From: an uncultured Lachnospiraceae bacterium
GTDB lineage: Bacteria > Bacillota > Clostridia > Lachnospirales > Lachnospiraceae
Length of the DNA stretch: 64,000 nt
Direction of reading: 5' to 3'
Assembly: GCA_946558465.1 (NCBI GenBank)
Contig: CAMNTM010000008.1
Coordinates: 62,001 to 126,000 of the forward strand
Of this stretch, positions 8,372-54,523 are shown one piece after another (the first letter of the stretch is position 1; the number at the start of each line of letters is the position of its first letter). The notes under the pieces were generated by a model, which was not told the DNA's origin, made no database searches, and worked only from the letters and a program-made list of their open reading frames with translations. Made by a program: the position numbers and the translations under genes.

Positions 8372-9568
8372 ATGGCAGAATCAAAACGCGATTATTATGA
8401 GGTTCTCGGCGTCGGTAAGGATGCCGATGACGCTGCTTTAAAAAAAGCATACAGACAGGTTGCCAAAAAATATCATCCTGACATGAATCCGGGAGATGCA
8501 GAGGCCGAGAAAAAATTTAAGGAGGCCTCTGAAGCATATGCGGTGCTCAGTGATCCGGAAAAACGCCGCCAGTATGACCAATTTGGCCACGCCGCGTTTG
8601 AAGGCGGTGCCGGCGGTGCGGGAGGATTCGGAGGCTTTGATTTCAGCGGAGCGGATTTCAGCGATATTTTCGGTGATATTTTCGGTGATTTGTTCGGAGG
8701 CGGAAGAAGAGGCCGTGCAAGCCAGGGACCGATGAAGGGCATGAATATCCGGAAGAGCGTAAGAATTACGTTTGAGGAGGCTGTGTTCGGCTGTGAGAAA
8801 GAACTGGATGTTGTGCTGAAGGATTCCTGCCCGAAATGCGGCGGCACAGGAGCAAAGCCGGGGACCTCACCGGAAACCTGCCCGAAATGCGGCGGCAAGG
8901 GCCAGGTTGTGTATACGCAGCAGTCCTTTTTCGGCACGGTACAGAACGTACAGACCTGTCCGGATTGTCATGGGACTGGTAAAATTGTTCGTGAGAAATG
9001 CTCAGACTGCGGCGGAACCGGCTATGTCTCCAACAGAAAAAAGATATCTGTATCAATTCCGGCAGGAATTGACAACGGGCAGAGTGTGCGGATCCGGGAA
9101 AAGGGCGAGCCGGGAGTAAACGGAGGACCGAGAGGAGACCTTCTGGTGGAGGTTGTGGTTTCCCGTCATCCGATTTTCCAGCGCCAGGATATGCATATTT
9201 TCTCGACGGTGCCGATTTCATTTGCTCAGGCAGCTCTGGGAGCGGACATCCGAATCAAGACGGTTGACGGAGAGGTAATCTATAATGTGAAGGCAGGTAC
9301 CAAGACGGATACGAAGGTACGGCTGAAGGGAAAGGGAGTTCCTTCCGTGCGGAATTCGCAGGTACGCGGGGACCATTATGTAACGCTTGTAATCCAGACG
9401 CCGGAACGTCTGAGTGCGGATGCGAAAGAAGCTTTGAGGCGGTTCGACGAGCTGACAGGGAATACATTAAATGCCGCTTCAGGCAGCGGAAACAGTGGAG
9501 GCAGCGAGAAAAGCGGAAAAAAGAAAAAGGGATTTATGGATAAGATGAAAGAGGCCTTTGATGATTAA
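8372..9568 (+). CDS. dnaJ: molecular chaperone DnaJ
   Basis: J domain with HPD, G/F region, four CxxCxGxG-type zinc repeats. Confidence 0.99.
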
Positions 9569-38623: not shown

Positions 38624-40426
38624 TTATTCAATCAGATAGTATACTGCTGAGTATGGTGCAAGTGTGATATCTGCAGAGTGGGTTTCGGGGTTCAGCGTGA
38701 TGACCGTATCCTTGTTATAATGTGTTTTTCCGGCATATTTATCCATATCGCTGGAAATCAGAACCTCCAGTGAGCCGGCTTCCCTGATCGTGAGGGTGTA
38801 ATTTTTCTGTACCTCATTCGAGAAATTGAAGACTGCGGCGATTCTTTCAGACCTGCACCGCCTTTCGAAGGCATAGATGCAGCGGGTTTCCTGATGGCAG
38901 TCTATCCACTCGAAGCCGTCACGGGAATAGTCCCTTTGGAAAAACGCCGGGTGATTCAAATAAAGGTGGTTTAAATCCTTCATAAACCGGTGAAAGGCAT
39001 CGTGGAGAGGGTATTTCAGAATATCCCAGTCCTGGCCGCGTTTCTCATCCCATTCCCGCAGCTGTCCCAGCTCATTTCCCATAAAGTTAAGTTTTTTGCC
39101 GGGATGGGCATACATATACATATAGAGCGCCCGTGCCTGCGGGAACTTTTCTTCATATTCACCGCTCATTTTCTGAAGAATGGATGCCTTGCCATGTACG
39201 GTTTCGTCATGGGAGAAGGGCAGAAGATAGGCATCGTTATAATAGTACATCATAGAAAAGGTAAGTTTGTGGTAATCCTTGCTTCGATACTGCGGCCCGG
39301 TGCGGAAATAATCCAGTGTATCGTTCATCCATCCCATATCCCATTTGTAGTCAAAACCAAGTCCGTTTTCCCATACGGGACGTGTAACACCGGGGTAGGA
39401 GGTAGAATCCTCTGCCGAGAGTATGGCATAAGGATGCAACTCCTTAAGCCCGCGGTTCATGTCGCGTATGAAGGCAACAGCGTTGTTGTTGACGCCTCTT
39501 GCCGGATCGCCCTGCCAGTAGATGATGCGGCTGATGGCATCCATGCGCAGGCCGTCTATGTGATATTCGCTGAGCCAGTAGCTGGCGGCAGACTGCAGGA
39601 AGCTTCGCACCTCACCGCGGGAATGCATGAAGTTGCAGCTGCCCCATTCACTTACTCCCACATCTGAATGGGGATATTCATAAAGAGGTGTCCCGTCGTA
39701 ATTGGCCAGTGCATAGCCGTCTACTGCAAAGTGCACAGGAACAAAATCTAAGATGACGCCGATATCATTTTGATGACAGATATCAACAAATTCCATCAGT
39801 TCACGTGCGGTACCGTAGCGGGAGGTAGGACTGAAAAAGCCGGTATTCTGATATCCCCAGGATTCGTCACAAGGGTGTTCAGAGAGCGGCATCAGCTCAA
39901 GATAATTGTAGCCGTATTCCTTCAGATAAGGAATCAGGATATCAGAAAGCTCCGTATAGCTGTACCAGTCGTCTGCTTTATCTGAGGGTTTCTTAAAAGA
40001 GCCGAAATGAAGCTCATAGATGTTAAGCGGCCGGACTTTGCTGTCTGAACGGTTTTTCATCCACTTTTTGTCTTGAAAGGTGTATTCGGATAAATCTCGT
40101 ATGATAGATGCGGTGTTGGGACGCAGCTCCATCCCAAAGCCATAAGGGTCGCAGTGGTCCGTAAAAGAACCGTCTCGTTTATAGATGCGGTATTTGTACA
40201 TTTGTCCGGGCTCTGCATTTTCTGCGGAGCATTCCCAGAAGTTTCTGTCATATACTCGGTTCATAGTCTGTTCCTGCCAGCTGTTAAATTCTCCGATCAG
40301 TGAAATCCGGGAAGCTCCGGGTGCAAAAGTGCGGAAAATAACTCCTGGCTGCTCTTTATCCAGGTGTGCTCCCAGAAATTGATGCGCGTCAAATACTTTT
40401 CCTGTATAAAATCCATAAAAATCCAT
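38624..40426 (-). CDS. glgB: 1,4-alpha-glucan branching enzyme (GH13)
   Basis: FAPGASRISLIGEFNSW, YHIDGLRMDAISRIIYW, LPFSHDETVHGKASIL. Confidence 0.95.
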   Translation of the reverse strand: MDFYGFYTGKVFDAHQFLGAHLDKEQPGVIFRTFAPGASRISLIGEFNSWQEQTMNRVYDRNFWECSAENAEPGQMYKYRIYKRDGSFTDHCDPYGFGMELRPNTASIIRDLSEYTFQDKKWMKNRSDSKVRPLNIYELHFGSFKKPSDKADDWYSYTELSDILIPYLKEYGYNYLELMPLSEHPCDESWGYQNTGFFSPTSRYGTARELMEFVDICHQNDIGVILDFVPVHFAVDGYALANYDGTPLYEYPHSDVGVSEWGSCNFMHSRGEVRSFLQSAASYWLSEYHIDGLRMDAISRIIYWQGDPARGVNNNAVAFIRDMNRGLKELHPYAILSAEDSTSYPGVTRPVWENGLGFDYKWDMGWMNDTLDYFRTGPQYRSKDYHKLTFSMMYYYNDAYLLPFSHDETVHGKASILQKMSGEYEEKFPQARALYMYMYAHPGKKLNFMGNELGQLREWDEKRGQDWDILKYPLHDAFHRFMKDLNHLYLNHPAFFQRDYSRDGFEWIDCHQETRCIYAFERRCRSERIAAVFNFSNEVQKNYTLTIREAGSLEVLISSDMDKYAGKTHYNKDTVITLNPETHSADITLAPYSAVYYLIE

Positions 40427-40953: not shown

Positions 40954-41544
40954 ATGGAAAAAGAAAATAACGGTATTGAATTTAATATTGGAGAGAAGAT
41001 ACGTAAGCTGCGGAAAATCCGAGGTATTACTCTTAAGAAAATGGCAGAAGATACAGGGATGAGTTATTCTTATCTGTCAGAGCTTGAGAATAATAAGCAT
41101 TCGGTTACTATTGATAATCTGCAGAAGCTTGCGTTGTATTTTCAGATTGACATGATTCATTTTCTGGAGAAGACAGAGAGAAAGAGTGTTCTGATTCGAA
41201 AGGAGAGCAGAAACAGCCTGACGACGGATGACGGAATTATATTTCAGGCAATTTCAACAGAGGATTCAAAAAGTATGCAGATAACCTTTGTTGTTCTTCC
41301 TCCGAATTCCCCTGAAAAGGAACAGAGAATCATACATAAGCACCCTCAGGGTGAGGAATTTATTACTGTTACGAAGGGTGAAGTGACTGTAGCAATTGAA
41401 GAAGAGAAGTATCTCCTTAAGGAAGGGGATTCCGTTATCTTTCCTTCCAGCAGGGAGCATGTGATATACAGCGGGGATAAGGGCGGTGAATTTATTATTG
41501 TCGGTGCACCGCCATACGGGCGTGAATATTTGAAACGGCTGTGA
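40954..41544 (+). CDS. XRE family transcriptional regulator with C-terminal cupin
   Basis: HTH KIRKLRKIRGITLKKMAEDTGMSYSYLSELENNKHS; cupin HKHPQGEEFITVTKGEVTV. Confidence 0.93.
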   Translation: MEKENNGIEFNIGEKIRKLRKIRGITLKKMAEDTGMSYSYLSELENNKHSVTIDNLQKLALYFQIDMIHFLEKTERKSVLIRKESRNSLTTDDGIIFQAISTEDSKSMQITFVVLPPNSPEKEQRIIHKHPQGEEFITVTKGEVTVAIEEEKYLLKEGDSVIFPSSREHVIYSGDKGGEFIIVGAPPYGREYLKRL

Positions 41545-41749
41545 CGTATATGATGCCGGGAGTATGAAATGCGGAGTAATCCGCGGCATCCTATATTATG
41601 AATCCCTTTTGTAAGCTTCCCTCTGCCTGGAGACACAGCTTTTGTGTGCGGTATGTGCGGCGCGGTGTATGATTTAGTTCCTGTATCATGTGATGTAATG
41701 TAATTGTAGTGTCAGCGCAGAACTAAAATGAATGGGTAGGAGGTTTTTT

Positions 41750-43108
41750 ATGAGCGGCAGCAATAACACAAAAGGGTTATCACCAAAAGCCTGTATTATG
41801 ATGGCGATTGGCGGTATGGTAGGAAGTTCTATATTTACGCTTTCCGGAGTGACATACAGTATGGCAGGGCCGGCGGCTATTGTTACCTGGTTTCTGGCAG
41901 GTGTGATTCTGCTTCTTTACGCACTGAATATTGCAGAGCTGGCGACGACATTTCCAAAGTCGGGCGGTGTCTATGTATATCCGCATGCAGTTCTTGGATC
42001 TACTGAGAAAGGGAAGAATTTTGCAGGCTGGATTGCAGCCTGGTCATGGCTGAACGTAAGTGTTTTTGGTACAACGTTTTCCGCTATCTGCGTAAGTACT
42101 TATCTGGGAAGCTTTTTCCCGGCTGTAGCAAGCAGCAGGGCGCTGCAGGTTGTTATTCCGATTGCATGGATTTTACTTACCTGGTTTTTGAATGCCAGAA
42201 GTGCCAATGCGTTTGGAAAGATTCATAATAAAATTACATTTGCGTTGTTATTTGTGCTGTGTGTATATATTGTACTTGGTCTTATCAACGGCGACAGTGC
42301 GAATATGCAGCCCTTTGTATCCGGCGGAATGGGATCTACAGGCATTGTTGCAGGAATTCCGATTGCGATGCTTGGCTATGGCTCCATTATCGCGGTTGCA
42401 TCCTTCGGAGGTGAGATTGAGAATCCGAAGAAGAATATTCCGAAGATTATTTTTACGGCGGTTGCAGGTACCGTTGTTGTGTACTGTATGATTTTGTTCT
42501 CAACCTTCCGCATGGCTCCGGTGGATGAGCTGGTGGCGGCAAATGCACAATATTATCCGCTGGCCTTTGCCCTGGGACGGGTTATGACCGGAAAAGCCGG
42601 CTGGATTGTATCAATTGTTCCGCTGGCAGCGCTTCTGGCCCTTACGACGAACATGAGTATTATGATTATGGATGCAAGCCGTACCGTTATGGCAACTGCG
42701 CAGTCAGGCTTTCTTCCTAAGAAATTAGGAGAGATTCATCCGGAAAAACGTACGCCGATATGGGCGTTGTCTACTGTTGCAGTCATCTGTATCTTAATGT
42801 CTTTAAGACCGGACTGGATAAATGTAATTATTAATGCAGGTTCTATCTGCTCTGCAATCACGGTGGCAATCATCTCGATTACCCTGATGACGCTGCGCAA
42901 AAAGCAGAAATCCGGCGTGATTACCGAAAAGGGAGAATTCAACGTTCCGGGCGGAAGTCTGATGCCGATTATAACACTTGTGGTGATTGTAATTACATTA
43001 GTACTTTTGTACTTTGGAGACGGCGGAACGACTGCTTATGTCGTGGCAGGGGTATGGTATATTATTGGTATCGTATTGTTCTTTATTAAGGAAATGACGA
43101 AGAAATAG
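41750..43108 (+). CDS. APC family amino acid permease
   Basis: 12-TM APC pattern ACIMMAIGGMVGSSIFTLSGVTYSMAGPAAI. Confidence 0.92.
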   Translation: MSGSNNTKGLSPKACIMMAIGGMVGSSIFTLSGVTYSMAGPAAIVTWFLAGVILLLYALNIAELATTFPKSGGVYVYPHAVLGSTEKGKNFAGWIAAWSWLNVSVFGTTFSAICVSTYLGSFFPAVASSRALQVVIPIAWILLTWFLNARSANAFGKIHNKITFALLFVLCVYIVLGLINGDSANMQPFVSGGMGSTGIVAGIPIAMLGYGSIIAVASFGGEIENPKKNIPKIIFTAVAGTVVVYCMILFSTFRMAPVDELVAANAQYYPLAFALGRVMTGKAGWIVSIVPLAALLALTTNMSIMIMDASRTVMATAQSGFLPKKLGEIHPEKRTPIWALSTVAVICILMSLRPDWINVIINAGSICSAITVAIISITLMTLRKKQKSGVITEKGEFNVPGGSLMPIITLVVIVITLVLLYFGDGGTTAYVVAGVWYIIGIVLFFIKEMTKK

Positions 43109-43161
43109 GGTGGAAGCTGTTGTTTCATAGAAACGGCAGGAAACTGAAATATTAGGGTAAA

Positions 43162-43200
43162 AAGCTGCGGTTTTATTTGTAAGAACCGCAGCTTCTTTTT
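43162..43200 (+). terminator. Rho-independent terminator
   Basis: AAGCTGCGGTT...AACCGCAGCTT followed by CTTTTT. Confidence 0.85.
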
Positions 43201-43277
43201 ATGCAGCTATGCATTCGAAAGATAAAAATGTTTTTTCCGCGGGAAACAGGCCAAGCAGCCGTGTCTGTACGGATATT

Positions 43278-44333
43278 TCACTTTGAATATGGGATACAGC
43301 TTTCGCGTTTTACGAGATCATAGGGTACCTTTATTGAAGGAATTTCTGTGATGCCGTTTATAATAGAAAGAAGTACTTGAATAATATATTTACCGAATAA
43401 TCCTGTATGACGGTCTATGCTGGTAAGACGGGGGGTTAAATAATCTGCGGTATGAAACTGGTCACAGCTGATTAGAGAAATATCGCCGGGAACTTTTATT
43501 TTTCTGTCGGCAAAAGCTCTGAGAACACCGATTGCCACATTGTCATTTGCTGTAAGAGCAGCGCTGAAAGGAATGTTTTTATCTAACAGATTCATGGCAG
43601 CGGAATAACCGTCAGGGGTATAATAATCGGAAAGCTCTATAAGCTCAGAATGGAAGGGCAGCCCCAGTTTCAACAAAGTTTCTTTATACATTTGAATTCT
43701 TTCCTGCGTGATGACGACTCCGTCCTCCCCGCCGATAAAAGCGATGTTCTTATGCCCCAGCGATGCAAGGTAATTAAGTGCGGTGGCAATGCCGCCCGTG
43801 TCTTCTCTGTTGAGGTAAAAGCAGTCAATACCGTCAATCGGTTTACCTATGATGACCAGGGGGAGCGCCTGAGAGAGATGCTTTAATGCGTTAAGGTAGG
43901 ATTGACTGAGATGAACCAGGTCCAGTTGCCCGCCGGCAATTAAAACGCCGTCTACTTTTTTATCTATCATCATCTGAAAATAGGTTTCCTCATTATGCAG
44001 GTTCTGTTTTGCATGTGATGAAGCACTGAAAAGTGTATTGCATAGAAACACAGAATAATTTGCTTCATGAGCGGCCTGCTCGATTTCATTAAAAATAGTG
44101 TAAAAATACGGGTTTGAAATGTCGGGCACAATCATTCCTATTGTCATGGACTGTTTTGATATCAGTCCGCGTGCCAATGCATTCGGGGAATAATTATATT
44201 TTTTTATGACTTTTTCCACGCGGCGTTTGGTATCTTCGGTGACGTGAGGATTATGATTGATAACTCGTGAGACTGTCGAGATGGAAACGCCGCATTCCTT
44301 TGCGATATCAGTAATGGTCTTTACAGATTTCAT
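43278..44333 (-). CDS. LacI family transcriptional regulator
   Basis: MKSVKTITDIAKECGVSISTVSRVINHNPHVTEDTKRRV. Confidence 0.95.
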   Translation of the reverse strand: MKSVKTITDIAKECGVSISTVSRVINHNPHVTEDTKRRVEKVIKKYNYSPNALARGLISKQSMTIGMIVPDISNPYFYTIFNEIEQAAHEANYSVFLCNTLFSASSHAKQNLHNEETYFQMMIDKKVDGVLIAGGQLDLVHLSQSYLNALKHLSQALPLVIIGKPIDGIDCFYLNREDTGGIATALNYLASLGHKNIAFIGGEDGVVITQERIQMYKETLLKLGLPFHSELIELSDYYTPDGYSAAMNLLDKNIPFSAALTANDNVAIGVLRAFADRKIKVPGDISLISCDQFHTADYLTPRLTSIDRHTGLFGKYIIQVLLSIINGITEIPSIKVPYDLVKRESCIPYSK

Positions 44334-44457
44334 GATAACCCTCCTTATATTAATTATTATATCCGAATAAAAAAATACCTTCAAGTATTATCCGGGGAAA
44401 GATGCTTTGTGTATAAAGTTGGGATAGATAAATAGGAGCCTCAGCGGATAGAAAGGC

Positions 44458-44928
44458 TCAATTTTCAATTTCAAGCAAGACCTCTATCTCGCAGGCAATG
44501 CCGCCCGGCAGAGAATTTGTGCCGATGGCAGAGCGTGCCGGGCAGCCGGTTTCATTTCCGAAAAGTTCCAGCAGAAGGCTTGAGCCGCCGTTTATTACCT
44601 GAGGCTGCTGATTAAAATCATCGGTGCTGTTCACAAATGCCAGTATTTTTATAAACCGTTTGATTTTGTTCAAATCGCCGATGGAAGCCTCGATGTTGGC
44701 AAGAAGATTTAAAATACAGTTAAAAGCTGCCTTTTGTCCCTCTTCCAGCGATAAGTCGCGGCCTAATTTACCAATTACGGTATTGCCGTTTCCCAGGTCA
44801 GGGCCGCAGCCGGAGCAATAGAGCAGACTCGAAGAGAATGCCTGAACCGGAGTGTATATCCCGCCCTTAGGCGGCGGTGCGGGAAGAGTAATTCCTTTTT
44901 CTGATAGTTTTTCATATACATTTGCCAT
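44458..44928 (-). CDS. RidA/YjgF family protein
   Basis: PAPPPKGGIYTPVQAFSSSLLYCSGCGP...GCPARSAIGTNSLPGGIACEIEVLLEI. Confidence 0.88.
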   Translation of the reverse strand: MANVYEKLSEKGITLPAPPPKGGIYTPVQAFSSSLLYCSGCGPDLGNGNTVIGKLGRDLSLEEGQKAAFNCILNLLANIEASIGDLNKIKRFIKILAFVNSTDDFNQQPQVINGGSSLLLELFGNETGCPARSAIGTNSLPGGIACEIEVLLEIEN

Positions 44929-44996
44929 AGTTTTTATTCCTCCTTTGTATTTATTAAAAATAGCAGTATATGTATTCGTTCCTGCAGGCAGTGTTA

Positions 44997-46133
44997 CTAA
45001 TAGGTAATCTTCCGGTTTCTGGCGGTTACGTGCCAGGTATCACAGAGTCTTTTATTCGACACAACAGGGACAAAAGGGTATAAAGCGCTGGTTGGACAGA
45101 TGTGGGCGGGTATCACGAAAAGCGTGTCACCAATTTGAGGACACAGATGCTCATAGCCTTCTTCCATGACAAAGGTCCAATGTTCCTCATTTTGAAAAAG
45201 CTCCCTTGCGTGAGGAAGAGAGACAATCACTCCGCGCGCTCCGGGAGGGTCGGCGGCGACAGCCTTATATCCCAAATCCAATGTGAAATATCCTTTTGCA
45301 GGACGGCTGATTACCCGCGTAAGAATCGCTGCGCCGGGTCTAAAATCTAAATCCGGATATTTGTGGGAGTATCCATAATCATTGATTAGTATCGTGCCGG
45401 GGGAAAGATAGATGGATATCCCTGGAAGGGCATAATCTGTATAGCAGGGCATTGACGGAGAACCGCCTAATATTAGTGTTTTAAAGCAGAATTTATCTTT
45501 ACCTAGAAGAGCGGCAAGCCTGGAAATCTGATATTTTACATCTTCGGTTTGTCTGCAGCGCTCAGAGAAATCCTGTTCCGTCCTGTGACCGTCATAGCAG
45601 TGCAGACCCTCCATAGAAATGCCGGGCATAGCATGGCAGTCCTTAAAAAAGTGTGCGGTTTCTTCGAATGATATACCGGTCCGGTTCATTCCGGGATTTA
45701 TATCTGCCAATATCCTTGCTTTGAGATTATTTTTGTAAAAAAGTTCTCCGAGTCTGTGGATTTGTTCTCTATTATCACCGATTGTCAGGAAATCTACGGT
45801 TGGAAAGGCTGTAACGAGCCGGAAATAACGTATCATATTAGGTCCCACTGGCGGGTAGGCAAGAAGTACGGAAGCTGCGCCGCTTGCAGCGGCCATTTCG
45901 GCTTCTGCAATTGTTGAACATTTGAAACGGGTAATACCGGCTTTTAACTGAAGACGGACTACCTGTTCCATCTTATGAGATTTCACATGGGGCCAAAGCC
46001 TGCCGGGAGTACCAGCCATTGCAATTGTTTTACGGATATTTTCCTGTATGATGTCTTTGTAATAAATCAGAGAGGGTGAAATTAAGTCATTGGCCCCTTC
46101 AAATTCATAAGTAGTATCATAAATATTTATCAT
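44997..46133 (-). CDS. D-threonine aldolase/D-serine dehydratase-like PLP enzyme (DSD1, alanine racemase N fold)
   Basis: PSLIYYKDIIQENI...WPHVKSHKMEQVVRLQLKAGI; C-terminal H...C metal-site region PAHICPT; RBS ggaggag before ATG 46133. Confidence 0.88.
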   Translation of the reverse strand: MINIYDTTYEFEGANDLISPSLIYYKDIIQENIRKTIAMAGTPGRLWPHVKSHKMEQVVRLQLKAGITRFKCSTIAEAEMAAASGAASVLLAYPPVGPNMIRYFRLVTAFPTVDFLTIGDNREQIHRLGELFYKNNLKARILADINPGMNRTGISFEETAHFFKDCHAMPGISMEGLHCYDGHRTEQDFSERCRQTEDVKYQISRLAALLGKDKFCFKTLILGGSPSMPCYTDYALPGISIYLSPGTILINDYGYSHKYPDLDFRPGAAILTRVISRPAKGYFTLDLGYKAVAADPPGARGVIVSLPHARELFQNEEHWTFVMEEGYEHLCPQIGDTLFVIPAHICPTSALYPFVPVVSNKRLCDTWHVTARNRKITY

Positions 46134-46228
46134 GGTCTCCTCCTTGTATCTGTAATGAGAATTTAAGTCAGTGTATTTGCGAGTATTAAAGATAAAATAT
46201 AAAAATATTAATGAATTTATATAAAATG

Positions 46229-46286
46229 ATTGACATGAAAACCTTTTCATAGTATTATCATATCATGAAAAGGTTTTCATGTCAAT
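46229..46286. promoter_or_regulatory. divergent promoters with embedded LacI-type operators
   Basis: 22 bp perfect inverted repeat (46229-46250/46265-46286); plus strand TTGACA-17-TATTAT, minus strand TTGACA-17-TATGAT, each spacer carrying ATGAAAACCTTTTCAT. Confidence 0.9.
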
Positions 46287-46308
46287 AAAGCTTGAAAGGA
46301 AAATATCC

Positions 46309-47253
46309 ATGAGGACATATTTAGGAATGGATTTCGGAGGAACGAAACTATTAATTGGAGAGGTTGCAATTGATGGAAAAATTTTACGCAGCAAAAGCTA
46401 TAGAACCAACTGCAGAACACAGGATGAGGCAGTCAGAAAACTTATAGAAAGTCTTGAAGATTATAAACATACAGTGAGTTTTGTGGGAGATATTACTGCA
46501 GGAGGAGTTGGAATTGTGGGGGTGACAGATCATGAAAAGGGTCTGTGGATTTCAATGAATCATGAAATTCAGGGGCCTCCGATTCCATTAGGAAAGTTAT
46601 TGACAGAACAGATGGGGGTTGGCGTAGCTGTTGATAACGATGTCAGAAGCGCTACTACAGCAGAATGGCTCTGGGGTCATGGGAGGATGTCGGATAATTT
46701 TGTATATATAAATATCGGGACCGGACTGGCGGCAGGATTTGTGACAGGAGGCAGGCTGATAAGAGGAGCTAATAATAATTCTGGCGAGATAGGACATATG
46801 GTAGTCAATCTTACAGACGAGGATGAATGCATATGTGGGAGAAAAGGCTGTGCGGAAAATATTATTTCGGGAAGCGGCTTCTTAAGACAGGCGTTAAAGC
46901 ATGATCTGCAGGAAATAATTGTAAGTAACGGCGCGCAGGCAGCAGACGTGCCAAGATTGATAAGACTTGTAGAAGAAGGGAATCCTGTAAGCAGGCAGAT
47001 TGTTGACTATGCAGTAGACACGCTGGCATGCATTATTATGAATCTGGTGAGAGTGACAGATCCGGATACTATAATATTAGGCGGCGGAGTTGTCAGCGAC
47101 GGATGGCTGCTGCATAAGGTAAAGGGTAAATTGAATGCGAATACGATGAGAGGTGTTGTAAACGGCGTTGTGTTGTCCCAGCTTGATCCTCAGAGTATCG
47201 GGTTGTTGGGGGCAGCTGCAGTAGGTTTGGTTTCAGTAGAAAAAAGAGAGTGA
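46309..47253 (+). CDS. ROK family sugar kinase
   Basis: YLGMDFGGTKLLIGEV, INIGTGLAAGFV, CICGRKGCAENIISG. Confidence 0.95.
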   Translation: MRTYLGMDFGGTKLLIGEVAIDGKILRSKSYRTNCRTQDEAVRKLIESLEDYKHTVSFVGDITAGGVGIVGVTDHEKGLWISMNHEIQGPPIPLGKLLTEQMGVGVAVDNDVRSATTAEWLWGHGRMSDNFVYINIGTGLAAGFVTGGRLIRGANNNSGEIGHMVVNLTDEDECICGRKGCAENIISGSGFLRQALKHDLQEIIVSNGAQAADVPRLIRLVEEGNPVSRQIVDYAVDTLACIIMNLVRVTDPDTIILGGGVVSDGWLLHKVKGKLNANTMRGVVNGVVLSQLDPQSIGLLGAAAVGLVSVEKRE

Positions 47254-47265
47254 GGAAGAAGCAGG

Positions 47266-49638
47266 ATGAGACAAAAATTCCAGAATGAACTGGTAAACAC
47301 ACTTTATATTCATAAGCCTTTAGCCGTTCACAGAGAAAGTGAATTAGAAGCAGAGGCAGGAATGAAAGAAGTACAAAGGAAAAAAGTTATATGGGATGGT
47401 GAAAGTAAAGATTATACGCCGGAAATGACAGGTACAGGTGTTATGTCTGTAGATTACGAGAGCAGGGTTATCCGGCTGGAGGCTCCGAGCCGGACTGACA
47501 AGTGGCCTAAAGGGGCACCGGAAGACGGTGATTACAGTGCTTTTGGGATTACAGGAGTCAGGTTTGTATTTCAGAATGAAGATTGGAGGAGGTATAACCG
47601 CCTTCATTTCAGATGGAAGCCTATGGTGGATGGCGGCCGGATTATATATGGAAGAACTGCTGTTGAGAATGTGGGCGAGGTTAGAGTTCCGGATAAATAT
47701 CTCAGAGAAGGACATACAACGTTTGATTTAAAGAATTATGAATGGAACGAATGTTACTGGGAATTTCCGTCAATGGGCCGGGATTCTGTAAGAGAACTGA
47801 AAATATATTTTGATATTTCCGGACAGGACATACCGCAGAATGATGTCATCCGATATGAATTGTCTGATATACGGATAGAAACGATAGCAGAACCGGAATT
47901 GGAGAAAGGCTGGGAATGCCGGAAGAATAAGATTGTATTTTCTACACAGGGATATTTTGTGAAAGGAAAGAAAACAGCATTGGCAAATGTATCGGCAGAT
48001 ACTTTTTCTGTATTCAATTCAGAGACAAACGAGAAGGTATTTGACGGAGACATTCAGTGTGTAGTAAACGAGAATGGAAGCTTTCAGGTGCTGGATTTTA
48101 CGGAGCTTAAAAAAGAAGGCCGGTATTATCTTCAGGCGGAAGGTATAAAAAGTGAGTCCTTTGAAATTTCATCAGTCTTATTAGAAGAGCCGGTGTGGAA
48201 GATTATTAACTTTTTGTACTGTCAGCGCTGCGGAATGCCGATAGCAAAGAGGCATGGGACATGTCATGAAGATATATATGCCGAGCATAATGGAGTTATT
48301 ATATCCTATTCAGGCGGATGGCATGATGCCGGAGATCTGTCGCAGCAGACACTCCAGACAGGAGAAATTGTACATGCGCTGCTGGAGACAGCGGAACAAT
48401 ATAAAGACAACAGAGTATTGTATGAAAGGCTTTTGGAGGAAGCACAGTGGGGGCTTGATTTTATACTGAAAACCAGATTCGGCGACGGCTACCGTGCCAC
48501 GAGTGCACCGTGCGTACGTGTTACCAATAATAAGCTTGGCGATATGGATGACATTAAAGCCAGAGTGCATAATCATTCTTTTGAAAATTTTACCTTTGCC
48601 GGTATAGAAGCATATGCGGCATATGTACTGAAAGAAGAGGACCCGGCATATGCTTTTGGCTGTCTGAAGGCTGCCAGAGAGGATTTCGCATTTGCAGAGG
48701 AAAAATTCGCAGAAACAAAGGTAGATCCATTTTTTCTGTATGAGCATACCTTTAATTGCGGCCTGTCCCAGTACTATGCAGCAATCGTATGGGCAGCGTC
48801 TAATCTTTATATGGCGTCAGGGAAAGAGGAGTACGCTGAGAAAGCAAGACAATGGGGAGATATGCTGTTAAAGTGTCAGGAAGAGGGAGGAAGCAGCGTA
48901 CCGCTTCGGGGCTTTTTCTATCGGGACGAGTCGCATAAAAGTATCGTTCATTTTAATCATCAGTCAAGAGAGCAGCAGTTTATACAGGCGTTGGAGCTTT
49001 TGTGCCGTACACAGCACGATTCTCCTGACAGATTAAAATGGGAGGAAGGACTGAGAGGCTATGGGGAGTATCTTAAAGCAATTGCGCCATATACGGCTCC
49101 GTACGGTATGATTCCGGCAGGAATCCATCACTTTGACGAGACAGAGGACGAAGAGCTGTTTCCGTATATGCATCTTCTGGCAGATTATCATGAGCAGAAG
49201 AAGGATTACAAAAAACAATTAGAGTCCGGAGTATTGCTTGGTAATGGGTATGCAATCCGAAAGTTTCCTGTATGGTTTTCATTCCGCGGAAATAATGCGG
49301 TGCTTTTGTCTATGGGAAAAGCAGCCTCCTTAATCGGAAAATATTTTAAAGACGATACATTGATTCAGATTGCAAAAGAGCAGCTTTACTGGATATGGGG
49401 AAAGAATCCCTTTGGGCAGTCTATGCAGTATGGAGCGGGAACAAGGTATTGCCGTCAATTTGCCGCACTGTGCGGAGAAAGTACAGGCGAAATACCGGTC
49501 GGCATAGAGACCTATGAAAATGAGGATGTGCCGTATTGGCCTCAGAATAACAATGCAACCTATAAAGAGATATGGACAACCTCAGCAGGAAGGTGGCTGT
49601 GGGTGGCAGCGGACATAGAAGAAACGGAAAGATTATAA
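47266..49638 (+). CDS. glycoside hydrolase family 9 protein with N-terminal Ig-like/CelD_N domain
   Basis: SGGWHDAGDLSQQT catalytic Asp motif, C-terminal WIWGKNPFGQSMQYGAG; true start may be at an internal ATG. Confidence 0.87.
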   Translation: MRQKFQNELVNTLYIHKPLAVHRESELEAEAGMKEVQRKKVIWDGESKDYTPEMTGTGVMSVDYESRVIRLEAPSRTDKWPKGAPEDGDYSAFGITGVRFVFQNEDWRRYNRLHFRWKPMVDGGRIIYGRTAVENVGEVRVPDKYLREGHTTFDLKNYEWNECYWEFPSMGRDSVRELKIYFDISGQDIPQNDVIRYELSDIRIETIAEPELEKGWECRKNKIVFSTQGYFVKGKKTALANVSADTFSVFNSETNEKVFDGDIQCVVNENGSFQVLDFTELKKEGRYYLQAEGIKSESFEISSVLLEEPVWKIINFLYCQRCGMPIAKRHGTCHEDIYAEHNGVIISYSGGWHDAGDLSQQTLQTGEIVHALLETAEQYKDNRVLYERLLEEAQWGLDFILKTRFGDGYRATSAPCVRVTNNKLGDMDDIKARVHNHSFENFTFAGIEAYAAYVLKEEDPAYAFGCLKAAREDFAFAEEKFAETKVDPFFLYEHTFNCGLSQYYAAIVWAASNLYMASGKEEYAEKARQWGDMLLKCQEEGGSSVPLRGFFYRDESHKSIVHFNHQSREQQFIQALELLCRTQHDSPDRLKWEEGLRGYGEYLKAIAPYTAPYGMIPAGIHHFDETEDEELFPYMHLLADYHEQKKDYKKQLESGVLLGNGYAIRKFPVWFSFRGNNAVLLSMGKAASLIGKYFKDDTLIQIAKEQLYWIWGKNPFGQSMQYGAGTRYCRQFAALCGESTGEIPVGIETYENEDVPYWPQNNNATYKEIWTTSAGRWLWVAADIEETERL

Positions 49639-49698: not shown

Positions 49699-50990
49699 AT
49701 GAGAAAAAAGTAAAACAAGGTATGAGCGTACTGCTGGCGGCATTTCTGGTAACCGGCCTCGCAGCATGCAGTGGAAGTGATTCAAAAAGCGGCAAGTCAA
49801 AAGAGGGGGTAACAATTTCTGTAGTAAGCTGTATCGGAGCTGAAAATGGAAGTCGTCAGACATATTTGGAGTATATTGATAAGTATGAAGAGGAGACGGG
49901 AAATGAGGTAAAAGAATCTGCAGGAGTAGCAGACGAGACATGGAAAGCGCAGGTGCTGGCGGATTTTGAGGCAGGAGCAGAGCCGGATGTACTTTATTAT
50001 TTTAAGGGAGTTGATGCAAATCCTTTGATTGAAGGAGAAAAGGTTGTATCGATTGATGAGATACGAGAAGAGTATCCGGAGTATGCAGATAATATGAAAG
50101 AGGAACTTATAGGAGCCTCTCCGTATGATAATAAGAACTATGCGATACCTGTAGTCGGTTACTGGGAGGCAATGTTTTGTAATAAAACAGTACTTGCCGA
50201 AGCCGGTGTAGAAGTACCGGGAGAGGACTATACGTGGGAACAGTTCATGGAAGACTGCAAAAAAATTAAAGAGGCAGGATATACGCCGGTGGCAATGTCA
50301 CTGCAGCAGACCCCGCATTACTGGTTCGAATTTTTAGTTTTAAATCAGGGAGGCCCCAAGCTTCACGCAGAGCTTCCGGAATCGGCAGACGACGGGGCAA
50401 GCCAGAGATGGCAGGCGGCGCTGAATGATTTTAAGGAGATGTATGAGGCGGGACTGCTGCCGGAAAATACGCTGACCTGTACGGACGAAGAGGCATTTCA
50501 ATTGTTATTTAATGACGAGGCGGCTTTTGCGATTGACGGCTCCTGGAAGGTAGGAACCTTTGAAGATATGGCAGACCCGGATAATTTTGCAGTTGCGTTC
50601 CCGCCGGCAAAAGGAGACCGGCTCACCACGGATTATATCGGAGGTATTTCAGACGGATATTATATTACACGGAAAGCATGGGAAGACCCGGAGAAGAGAG
50701 AGGCGTGTGTTAAGTTTGTAGAGATGCTTACCGGCGATGATGTGGTGGCCGAATTTGCGAATACCAGCTTTGGAATTACAGCGCTTAAGGAGGCAGTGCC
50801 GCCGGTGGAGGATGCGAATCAGTTAGAAGTATCTGTGCTGGAAATGAATGCAAAGGTCACGAGTTTTTCACCGGCAGTGCAGGATTCCCTTACCGGCGCC
50901 AGACGCGACAACTTATTCAGTAATGTCAAGAATGTAGCAGACGGACAGATGAGTGCGAAAGAAGCACTCGAAGAAATGCTGAAAAAGTAA
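49699..50990 (+). pseudogene. sugar ABC transporter substrate-binding lipoprotein, apparent frameshift in signal peptide
   Basis: RBS aggaggaag then ATGAGAAAAAAGTAA; one extra A in 49704-49709 gives MRKKVKQGMSVLLAAFLVTGLAACSG joined to ORF 49722..50990. Confidence 0.88.
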
Positions 50991-51003
50991 GCGCTGATGG
51001 ATG

Positions 51004-51035
51004 TTACAGAGAACAGGGCATTCTGTTCTCTGTAA
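51004..51035 (+). other. intercistronic stem-loop without U-tract
   Basis: TTACAGAGAACAG-ggcatt-CTGTTCTCTGTAA, 13 bp perfect stem. Confidence 0.7.
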
Positions 51036-51051
51036 TACAGGAGGTAGGACA

Positions 51052-51938
51052 ATGTCATCAATGTTTAGAAAAAAGAAGCCGCTGCTCTTATTTTTACTCC
51101 CGACGTTAATCTATATGGGATTGTTTTTATATTATCCGTTTGTGATGAATATCAGCAACAGTATCCATGAGATTAAGGGGCTGGGCCAGGCGGCGGAAGC
51201 AGTAAATTCCCCGTGGTTTCTGAATTACAGGCAGATATTTGAGGACCCAAAGATATGGACTGCGTTGAGGAATACCTTAATCTTTACCGTCTGTACGGTA
51301 GTATTTCAGGTGGGAATCGGATTGGTTCTGGCTTTAATCGTGGATAATATAAGGAGAGGAGCAAAATTTTTTCAGACGGTTTATTTTTCCCAATTGTTAT
51401 CAGCGCCACAGCTTTGGGATTGATGTTTAATCTGATCTTTCTTTATAAGGGAGGCATGATAAATCATATCCTGCTGAATGTATTTCATCAAAAGGAGCTG
51501 ATTGACTGGAAGGGAGATAAATATTGGCTGGTTACCATGCTGATTCCGACTATGTGGCAGTATGTCGGGTATTATTTTGTTATTTTAATGACAGGACTTA
51601 ATAATATTTCGTCAGATATTTATGAGGCTGCAGTCATTGACGGGGTAACAAAGTGGCAGAAAATCAGATATATCTCCTGGCCGTTATTGCATAACACACT
51701 TTGTACGTGTGTTATACTTGCCATTACTGGTTCATTAAAAATATTTGACCTTCCGTGGACAATGTTTCCAAATGGGCTGCCGATGGAGAAATCATGGCTG
51801 TTAAGCACCTATATGTATAAACAGACATTTATAGCAAGTGATGTTGATTACGGCTCGACAATTGCAATCTTAATTGTTGTTATCGGCATTATTATGGCTC
51901 AGATTGCAAATAAAGTCTTTAAAGAAAAGGATTATTAG
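51052..51938 (+). pseudogene. sugar ABC transporter permease (MalF/UgpA-like), apparent frameshift
   Basis: ORF 51001..51423 and ORF 51414..51938 join with one extra T in 51384-51388: FFQTVYFFPIVISATALGLMFNLIFLYKGG. Confidence 0.92.
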
Positions 51939-51949
51939 GAGGGCGGCGT

Positions 51950-52828
51950 ATGAAAAGGGAACAAGAGCTTAGAGGAAAAAAGAAATATTCTCCTGGCACA
52001 ATATGCTTTTATATCGTGCTGTGCGGCTGGGCCGTTACTACAATTTATCCCTTTTTGTGGGTATTTATGAATTCTTTTAAACCTCGGGGAGAGATTCGGA
52101 ATAATTCCTTTTCACTTCCCGTAGGTGATTTGTTTACGACAGAAAATTATGCGGAAGTATTTAATCGTATGAAGATGGGAAATGCGTATATAAACAGTAT
52201 TGTCATTTCAGCAGCTGTGACAGTAATTGTACTCCTGCTGGCAGGATTTACTGCATATGGACTGAGCAGATACCGTTTTAAAGGAAGAGGGTTAGTCCGC
52301 TATCTGATTATCGGAAGCATGATGTTTCCAATGTTTGCAGTTGTCATTCCTGTGTTCCGCATGGAACATGCCTGGGGAATTGTTAATACGGATAATCTGC
52401 TGTTAAACTGGATAAGTGTTATATTTCCGCAGGCAGCAGGGAATATTGCGTTTGGTATTATCGTACTGATGGGATTTATCAACAGCATTCCCCTTGATTT
52501 AGAGGAAGCAGCGTATATAGAGGGGTATAATGTATATCAGATTTACTGGAAGGTTGTCATGCCGCTTATTAAGCCAAGTCTTGCCACGGTAGGAATTTTT
52601 TCTTTTCTGTGGAGTTATAATGATTTGTTTACACAGATGTTTTTCCTGCGTTATGAAGAGTATCAGACGGTTACTCTTGTTCTGAATAAGGTTACCAGTA
52701 AGGCAGGGACGAATTACGGAGTGATGGCCGCGGCTGTCGTATTAGTAGTTATACCGGTATTTATCATGTATCTGCTGATGCAGAAAAATATAGTGAAGGG
52801 CCTTACAGCAGGAGCGGTTAAAGGATAG
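51950..52828 (+). CDS. sugar ABC transporter permease (MalG/UgpE-like)
   Basis: Six-TM pattern with EAAYIEGYNVYQIYWKVVMPLIKP EAA loop. Confidence 0.94.
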   Translation: MKREQELRGKKKYSPGTICFYIVLCGWAVTTIYPFLWVFMNSFKPRGEIRNNSFSLPVGDLFTTENYAEVFNRMKMGNAYINSIVISAAVTVIVLLLAGFTAYGLSRYRFKGRGLVRYLIIGSMMFPMFAVVIPVFRMEHAWGIVNTDNLLLNWISVIFPQAAGNIAFGIIVLMGFINSIPLDLEEAAYIEGYNVYQIYWKVVMPLIKPSLATVGIFSFLWSYNDLFTQMFFLRYEEYQTVTLVLNKVTSKAGTNYGVMAAAVVLVVIPVFIMYLLMQKNIVKGLTAGAVKG

Positions 52829-52843: not shown

Positions 52844-53581
52844 GTGAAGATAACAATAGAAAATACGGAACATGATTTTGACGTGGCGGCGGCATGGCGC
52901 ATTATTGGACAGATACTGGCAAAGAAGGATTCGGTTATCGGTCTTTCAACGGGGAAGACGACAGGAAATATGCATAAGATAGTGAGTGATATTTACCAAA
53001 AATATCCCTTTGATACGTCGAAAGTCACAATATTTAATGTAGATGAGCTGACAAATCTGGACAGAAGCTATTCCGGAAGCTGCTATAGTATGATTTATAA
53101 CGAGCTGATTAAAAATATCCATATTCCGGAGAAAAATTTTATTATGCCGCAGACATTTGCAGAAGATTTTACAGAAGAGTGCAGAAAATTTGAAGCAGAG
53201 CTGGAAAAAAGAGGAGGGGCGGACCTTCAGATGCTTGGGATTGGCTGGAACGGGCATATCGGCATTAACCAGCCCGGAACGCCGTTTGAAAAAACGACCT
53301 GGGTATCTCCGATGGATCCGGTTTTTGAAAAAAAAGTCCGGCAGGAGACGAATGTATCGGATGATTATGAGCTGGGCGGCCTGACAAGAGGTATTGTGAA
53401 TATTATGCATACCCGGAAAATTGTGCTGATTGCAAAAGGGAAAGAAAAGGCCTCTATTATCAGACAGGCTTTACTGGGGCCTGTTACGACAGACATACCG
53501 GCATCGGTTGTGCAGCTTCATCCGGATTGTGAGGTTCTTCTGGATTCTGATGCGGCTGGAGAAATCCGGCCATATCTTTAG
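52844..53581 (+). CDS. glucosamine-6-phosphate deaminase (NagB family)
   Basis: IGLSTGKTTGNMH, NVDELTNL, LGIGWNGHIGINQPGTPF. Confidence 0.92.
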   Translation: MKITIENTEHDFDVAAAWRIIGQILAKKDSVIGLSTGKTTGNMHKIVSDIYQKYPFDTSKVTIFNVDELTNLDRSYSGSCYSMIYNELIKNIHIPEKNFIMPQTFAEDFTEECRKFEAELEKRGGADLQMLGIGWNGHIGINQPGTPFEKTTWVSPMDPVFEKKVRQETNVSDDYELGGLTRGIVNIMHTRKIVLIAKGKEKASIIRQALLGPVTTDIPASVVQLHPDCEVLLDSDAAGEIRPYL

Positions 53582-53593
53582 TGAGGACGGAAC

Positions 53594-54523
53594 ATGGGAT
53601 ACATATTATCGGTAGACGGAGGTGGAACAAAAACAGAGTTTCTTTTATGCCGTTCAGAAGGAGAGGTTATTACGTCCTTTAAGGCAGGCGCCGGTAACTA
53701 TAGGAATATAGGCAGAAAAAAAGCGTTTGACAATTTCCGTGAAGGACTTGACAGAGTCTTAAAGGAAGCGGACATAACAAAAGAGGAAATAGACTACAGC
53801 GTATGGGGAATTTCAGGCTGTGATACAAAAAAGGATTATGCTATTCTCTGTCACATGATACAGGAATTAGGGATTCCGTATGGCAGATATGAGGTTTGTA
53901 ATGACGCTGTTCTGGGATATTATGCGCAGGCGGACGGGTCGGGCATGGCGGTAGTGGCAGGAACAGGCTCTATCGTCTGGGGAATTGGCAGAAAGGGTGA
54001 ATACTGCAGAAAAGGAGGCTGGGGGCATCTGCTTAGTGACGGCGGCTCCGGATATTGGATTGGCAGTATGGCGCTGCAAAAAACAATTTTGTATTGCGAG
54101 GGCTGTTATCCCCATTCTCAATTGTTCGACTCTGTTCAGGCACAGTTTCAGGCCGGGTCTGTGGAAGAATTACTTGCATCGCTTGCCGGGCTCAGGGACA
54201 TTCAAAGAATCGCGTCTGTCGCAAGGATTGTAACCGAACTTGGCCGGCAGGGGGATAAGGAATCCCGGAAAATTCTGGAAAAAGGAGCAGAATTGCTGAC
54301 GGATATGCTTCAGGCAGTATATGAAACCTTAGATTTCAGGCGGGAAAGCCGGATAAATCTTGTAATGTCAGGCGGTGTACTAAAAAGCGAAGAATATATC
54401 CGGGTATTAAAGAAGGAAATCGCATGCAGAAATTTCCGGAAAAATATAAAGTACGTAGAACAAATAAATGCACCTGTTCAGGGAGGAATTTGTCTTGCAG
54501 AAAAACGAATCACGAAAGCATAA
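53594..54523 (+). CDS. BadF/BadG/BcrA/BcrD ATPase family, N-acetylglucosamine/glucosamine kinase-like
   Basis: YILSVDGGGTKTEFLLC, VVAGTGSIVWGIG, GDGGSGYWIG-like LLSDGGSGYWIG. Confidence 0.92.
   Translation: MGYILSVDGGGTKTEFLLCRSEGEVITSFKAGAGNYRNIGRKKAFDNFREGLDRVLKEADITKEEIDYSVWGISGCDTKKDYAILCHMIQELGIPYGRYEVCNDAVLGYYAQADGSGMAVVAGTGSIVWGIGRKGEYCRKGGWGHLLSDGGSGYWIGSMALQKTILYCEGCYPHSQLFDSVQAQFQAGSVEELLASLAGLRDIQRIASVARIVTELGRQGDKESRKILEKGAELLTDMLQAVYETLDFRRESRINLVMSGGVLKSEEYIRVLKKEIACRNFRKNIKYVEQINAPVQGGICLAEKRITKA

Follow-up and report, generated by a model that had tools for sequence, protein, structure and literature searches.

The window, a stretch of 64,000 nucleotides from an uncultured Lachnospiraceae bacterium, contains two operons that appear to diverge from one short element at 46229-46286, which raises the question of how both are controlled from it and by which regulator. 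The element is a perfect inverted repeat with 22-bp arms separated by 14 nt (46229-46250 and 46265-46286), as the sequence-only reading of this locus had described; the arm at 46229-46250 reads ATTGACATGAAAACCTTTTCAT, and its reverse complement occupies 46265-46286. This repeat is the longest perfect one between positions 40001 and 52000, and the best inverted repeats in Markov controls of the same 12-kb length (n = 10, first-order) reached 9-11 bp compared with 22 bp in the real sequence, which excludes a chance origin. Each arm carries TTGACA followed by ATGAAAACCTTTTCAT, with one A common to both.

Two divergent promoters can be read from the repeat. The plus promoter, TTGACA-17-TATTAT (46230-46258), has its boxes at 46230-46235 and 46253-46258, while the minus promoter, TTGACA-17-TATGAT (46257-46285, minus strand), has them at 46285-46280 and 46262-46257, with a TG extending the -10 box. 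Both match the sigma-A consensus at 11 of 12 positions and were the two top promoter-like sites in a scan of 43000-46400. The -10 boxes overlap by 2 bp on opposite strands within TATTATCATA (46253-46262), so that this centre supplies both strands with a -10 box, each 17 bp from its -35 box, which is the optimal distance. The promoters, spacers and overlap proposed earlier were thereby confirmed, except that the label "back-to-back" was wrong: the -35 boxes lie on the outside, with the -10 boxes between them. With an assumed distance of 7 nt from the -10 box to +1, transcription is predicted to start at 46265 on the plus strand and at 46250 on the minus strand, both A and 15 bp apart. At the level of sequence, 46229-46286 is a real, well-formed regulatory element, a near-palindromic promoter-operator predicted to act as a symmetric bidirectional sigma-A promoter.

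The minus operon runs in the order 46136-44997, 44928-44458 and 44333-43278. Its first gene encodes a D-threonine aldolase/D-serine dehydratase-like PLP enzyme with an H-x-C metal motif (PF01168, PF14031; alignment with 4v15), its second a Rid-family (YjgF/RidA-like) protein (PF14588/PF01042), and its third and last a LacI-family repressor of 351 amino acids (PF00356, PF13377, PF00532), the probable binder of the element. Pfam matches and alignments showed the LacI helix-turn-helix, the hinge leucine and the periplasmic-binding-like core of the family in this protein, and the LacI/CcpA pattern is retained in both its recognition helix, VSISTVSRVIN, and its hinge, NALARGLISK. The sequence-only reading had noted a LacI regulator 2 kb away; since lacI belongs to the minus operon as its third gene, it is not a mere neighbour, and the element probably autoregulates lacI as well. 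The first enzyme has His-x-Cys (PAHICPT) where AxDTA has His347-x-Asp349, and His/Cys is reported for the D-serine dehydratase (PMC4401734); given this motif and the adjoining RidA-like gene, a dehydratase role seems likelier than an aldolase role. Just past lacI, an XRE-cupin regulator gene is followed by an amino-acid permease gene (40954-43108, plus strand), for which a functional link to the dehydratase-RidA pair is possible. The predicted mRNAs starting at 46265 and 46250 share their first 22 nt, AUGAAAAGGUUUUCAUGUCAAU; on the minus strand, the AUG in this segment shares the reading frame of the dehydratase gene, giving a 417-aa ORF, although the start at 46136 has a good Shine-Dalgarno sequence of its own.

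The plus operon begins with a ROK-family sugar kinase (46309-47253; PF00480) and continues with a GH9-type glycosidase (47266-49638; PF00759, PF02927), a sugar ABC transporter composed of a binding protein and two permeases (49722-52828), a glucosamine-6-phosphate deaminase-like (NagB) gene (52844-53581; PF01182) and a BadF-type, N-acetylglucosamine kinase-like gene (53594-54523; PF01869, with NF046058 below its cut-off). NagB and the kinases point to amino-sugar oligosaccharides as the likely substrate class. A frameshift near 51380-51420 divides the first permease (51001-51938) into two ORFs, reflecting either a broken gene or a sequencing error.

Two identical putative operators, ATGAAAACCTTTTCAT, lie in the repeat. 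Copy 1 (46235-46250, plus strand) extends over +1 to +16 of the minus promoter and falls in the spacer of the plus promoter; for copy 2 (46265-46280, minus strand) the roles are exchanged, with +1 to +16 in the plus promoter and the spacer in the minus promoter. These predicted sites are 16-bp even palindromes, within the 16-22 bp of LacI-type operators, and their conservation with orthologous LacI genes ties them to a local LacI regulator, the other mark of the class. Their centre is CC/GG instead of the CG that is usual, though not obligatory, in LacI-family operators. A scan of the 3.12-Mb genome for ATGAAAACSTTTTCAT, which had been suggested earlier, found no further copy with at most one mismatch, as fits a local regulator; with two mismatches and W ends, the genome count was not above that of a reversed-pattern control. 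The operator centres are 30 bp apart, and cooperativity between LacI dimers at this distance is possible; the Tn10 tet operators also have about 30 bp between their centres. For paired LacI-type sites, a spacing peak at 32 bp has been reported (PMC4052901), and the 30 bp of the window is near this peak but not on it.

Searches for orthologs of the window's LacI, which covered 85,488 species genomes along with family and order samples, yielded seven other loci (L005, L006, L032-L035 and L041) with a LacI 47-54% identical to it. L005 and L006 are Herbinix metagenome-assembled genomes and L041 comes from another family of the same order; the L033 protein is the reciprocal best match of the window LacI (390 bits versus 118 for the next). 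The operons next to the orthologous genes are related ones of the kinase/GH9/NagB or sugar-ABC type: six of the seven loci have a ROK gene beside lacI that shares 42-52% identity with that of the window, NagB (60-68%) is present in four, with a partial NagB in L005, and GH9 (40-43%) in L033, L034, L035 and L041. The second ABC permease of the window (within 49722-52828) is only 25-31% identical to permeases of the ortholog loci, compared with 40-68% for ROK, GH9 and NagB, and the transporter may have been exchanged. At L036 (9482-12426), a LacI 44-45% identical lies next to a gene for an N-acyl-D-amino-acid deacylase-like protein; no operator of this type was seen close by, and this LacI is probably a paralogous regulator.

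The operator motif was found in all seven ortholog loci. Exact matches to TGAAAN-SS-NTTTCA numbered 12 in the 181 kb of ortholog loci and window, versus 0.15 expected from Markov sequences, and all 12 are located between a regulator and its neighbouring or target operon. In five loci (L005, L006, L033, L034 and L041), the catabolic promoter TTGACA-17-TATnnT is followed after exactly 6 nt by the operator, a layout identical to that of both window promoters; copy 2, on the catabolic side, thus has the same position relative to the -10 box as in five of seven loci. The distance is 7 nt in L035, and L032 has an overlapping site pair beginning at 11 nt. The conserved, ancestral operator position is therefore +1. 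The operators also lie in the spacers because the mirror-image overlap puts the partner's +1 operator there. The earlier reading of a LacI-type operator paired with this LacI is strongly supported by the ortholog loci, but the spacer is not its primary position. The L032 pair (8632-8658) consists of two overlapping operators of the same type offset by 13 bp, a distance at which a peak is also reported for pairs of LacI-family sites (PMC4052901).

The CC/GG centre noticed earlier proved real, being present in 13 of 15 sites when the two of the window are counted with those of the ortholog loci; the remaining two, the main sites of L005 and L006, have CG. In the close relatives L033 and L034, the coding strand shows CC at the centre of the kinase-side site at one locus and GG at the other, which is what a symmetric dimer accepting both orientations would predict. 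The CC/GG centre is a property of the window's LacI ortholog group. Among LacI-family even palindromes, 1173 of 1251 regulators have a CG centre, 49 a non-CG centre and 29 a degenerate one (PMC4052901), and this group is accordingly unusual, though not unique. The window otherwise resembles the RegPrecise LacI-family regulons (PMC4052901) in its 16-bp even palindrome, its local, probably autoregulated sugar regulator and its paired sites at near-helical spacing. The group offers a test case for LacI-type hinge recognition of a CC/GG rather than a CG centre. The idea that an isoleucine following the hinge leucine goes with this centre was rejected: most orthologs have GLIS, SLIR or GLIL, but L041 combines GLSL with a CC centre.

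Since each operator lies at +1 of one promoter and in the spacer of the other, a single dimer on either of them should shut both promoters. Of the two options offered by the sequence-only reading, joint repression of both transcripts follows from this geometry, and mutually exclusive polymerase binding would be expected on steric grounds (PMC12825309). The element would drive two operons, ROK-GH9-ABC-NagB-kinase to the right and dehydratase-RidA-lacI to the left, and we infer that LacI made from the leftward operon binds the two identical 16-bp operators. Polymerase would then be blocked at both promoters by a dimer at either one, and the geometry suggests a redundancy in which leak would occur only when both operators are empty. 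By analogy with the family, an amino-sugar-type inducer would release LacI, after which polymerase would enter in one of two mutually exclusive orientations, and both operons and LacI synthesis would be co-induced at a ratio set by the -10 boxes. Operator-LacI pairing and joint repression, the first step, are well supported by the comparative data, and we hold it quite probable that the whole model applies, that is, a symmetric promoter at which the local LacI represses both operons from either operator, is released by inducer and gives way to exclusive polymerase orientations.

The identity of the binder is the point at which another explanation would enter. The operator motif resembles catabolite-responsive elements, CcpA is the closest solved structure to the local LacI, and the genome encodes eight LacI-type DNA-binding domains, two of them with VSVATVSRV helices; a CcpA-like global regulator or a paralogue could hence occupy the sites, with the local LacI incidental. 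We regard this as improbable, because each orthologous LacI, across several genera and a second family, has the same motif at the same position next to it, and because an operator confined to a single locus at one mismatch or fewer is unlike a global regulon. Nor does any protein of the genome reach the 442 bits that TIGR01481 sets as its cut-off for CcpA (best score, 231 bits), and with neither such a protein nor other genomic sites at this stringency, the CcpA/cre explanation was set aside.

With the local LacI retained as the binder, it could still be that the plus promoter alone works, the minus promoter being weak or silent and lacI being expressed mainly from an internal promoter. A possible site of this kind, TTGAAG-17-TATAAT at 44384-44356 on the minus strand, matches the consensus at 10 of 12 positions, in a scan that gave 13 sites versus 8 expected by chance, and the relatives do have a separate lacI promoter. 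The minus promoter nevertheless scores 11 of 12 with a TG-extended -10 box, the scan found no minus-strand terminator-like site between the RidA and lacI genes, and upstream of the first two minus genes nothing else promoter-like scores above 9 of 12, which makes a plus-only arrangement unlikely. Far less credible still is that the repeat is a structural or mobile element, such as a hairpin RNA, terminator or transposon end, and not a regulatory pair. Although a perfect 22-bp repeat with a 14-nt gap has the form of one, it lacks a T-run, neither predicted transcript spans both arms, and two near-consensus promoters and a conserved operator lie inside it; a structured RNA was ruled out by an Rfam search of 43000-47500 that gave no match, and a mobile repeat by finding no second copy in the genome.

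The mirrored two-operator pattern with its spacing occurred in 1 of 397 family genomes, that of the window, and TTGACA-17-TATnATnATA-17-TGTCAA was found without mismatch in the same genome only and with one mismatch in 11 of the other 396; the LacI ortholog was not found in five other species of the genus. In L005, L006, L033 and L034, lacI has a promoter to itself, and a second operator, on the lacI side, stands directly upstream of that promoter, before its -35 box, so the mirror arrangement itself is not conserved. Judging from this comparison, an inverted copy of the catabolic module appears to have taken the place of a layout with two promoters, and the window presents a divergent promoter whose relatives reveal the ancestral half of the overlap. 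Tentatively, the complete module (-35, -10 and +1 operator) may have been copied inverted onto itself. The result would be a fully symmetric switch with two promoters to each operator, two redundant sites through which the operons are repressed together, induced output apportioned by polymerase orientation competition, and control by a LacI subgroup that prefers a CC/GG-centred operator.

Bacterial bidirectional promoters, defined by opposite-strand starts 7-25 bp apart (PMC10268837), are comparable in their shared or overlapping -10 region and in the steric exclusion expected between orientations (Warman/Grainger; PMC12825309, PMC10268837). The starts predicted for the window, 15 bp from each other, would fall within that range. 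The window differs in its two full consensus -35 boxes within a perfect 22-bp repeat and in its mirrored operators. Five E. coli bidirectional promoters that were tested had a basal activity too low for polymerase competition, which appears only at high activity (PMC12825309). In contrast, competition for orientation would be expected at the window element once derepressed, as we infer from the steric argument and the E. coli work (PMC12825309), which makes the element well suited, as a compact natural case, for asking whether polymerases do so where a bidirectional promoter is strong. The Tn10 tetA/tetR region (cited in PMC11686294) shares overlapping divergent promoters, two similar palindromic operators (tetO1/tetO2) and a repressor gene on one arm. 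The likeness is one of layout only, since the Tn10 repressor belongs to the TetR family and that of the window to the LacI family. Moreover, tetR is the first gene of its arm whereas lacI is the third, and only in the window are the promoters and operators mirror images of each other.
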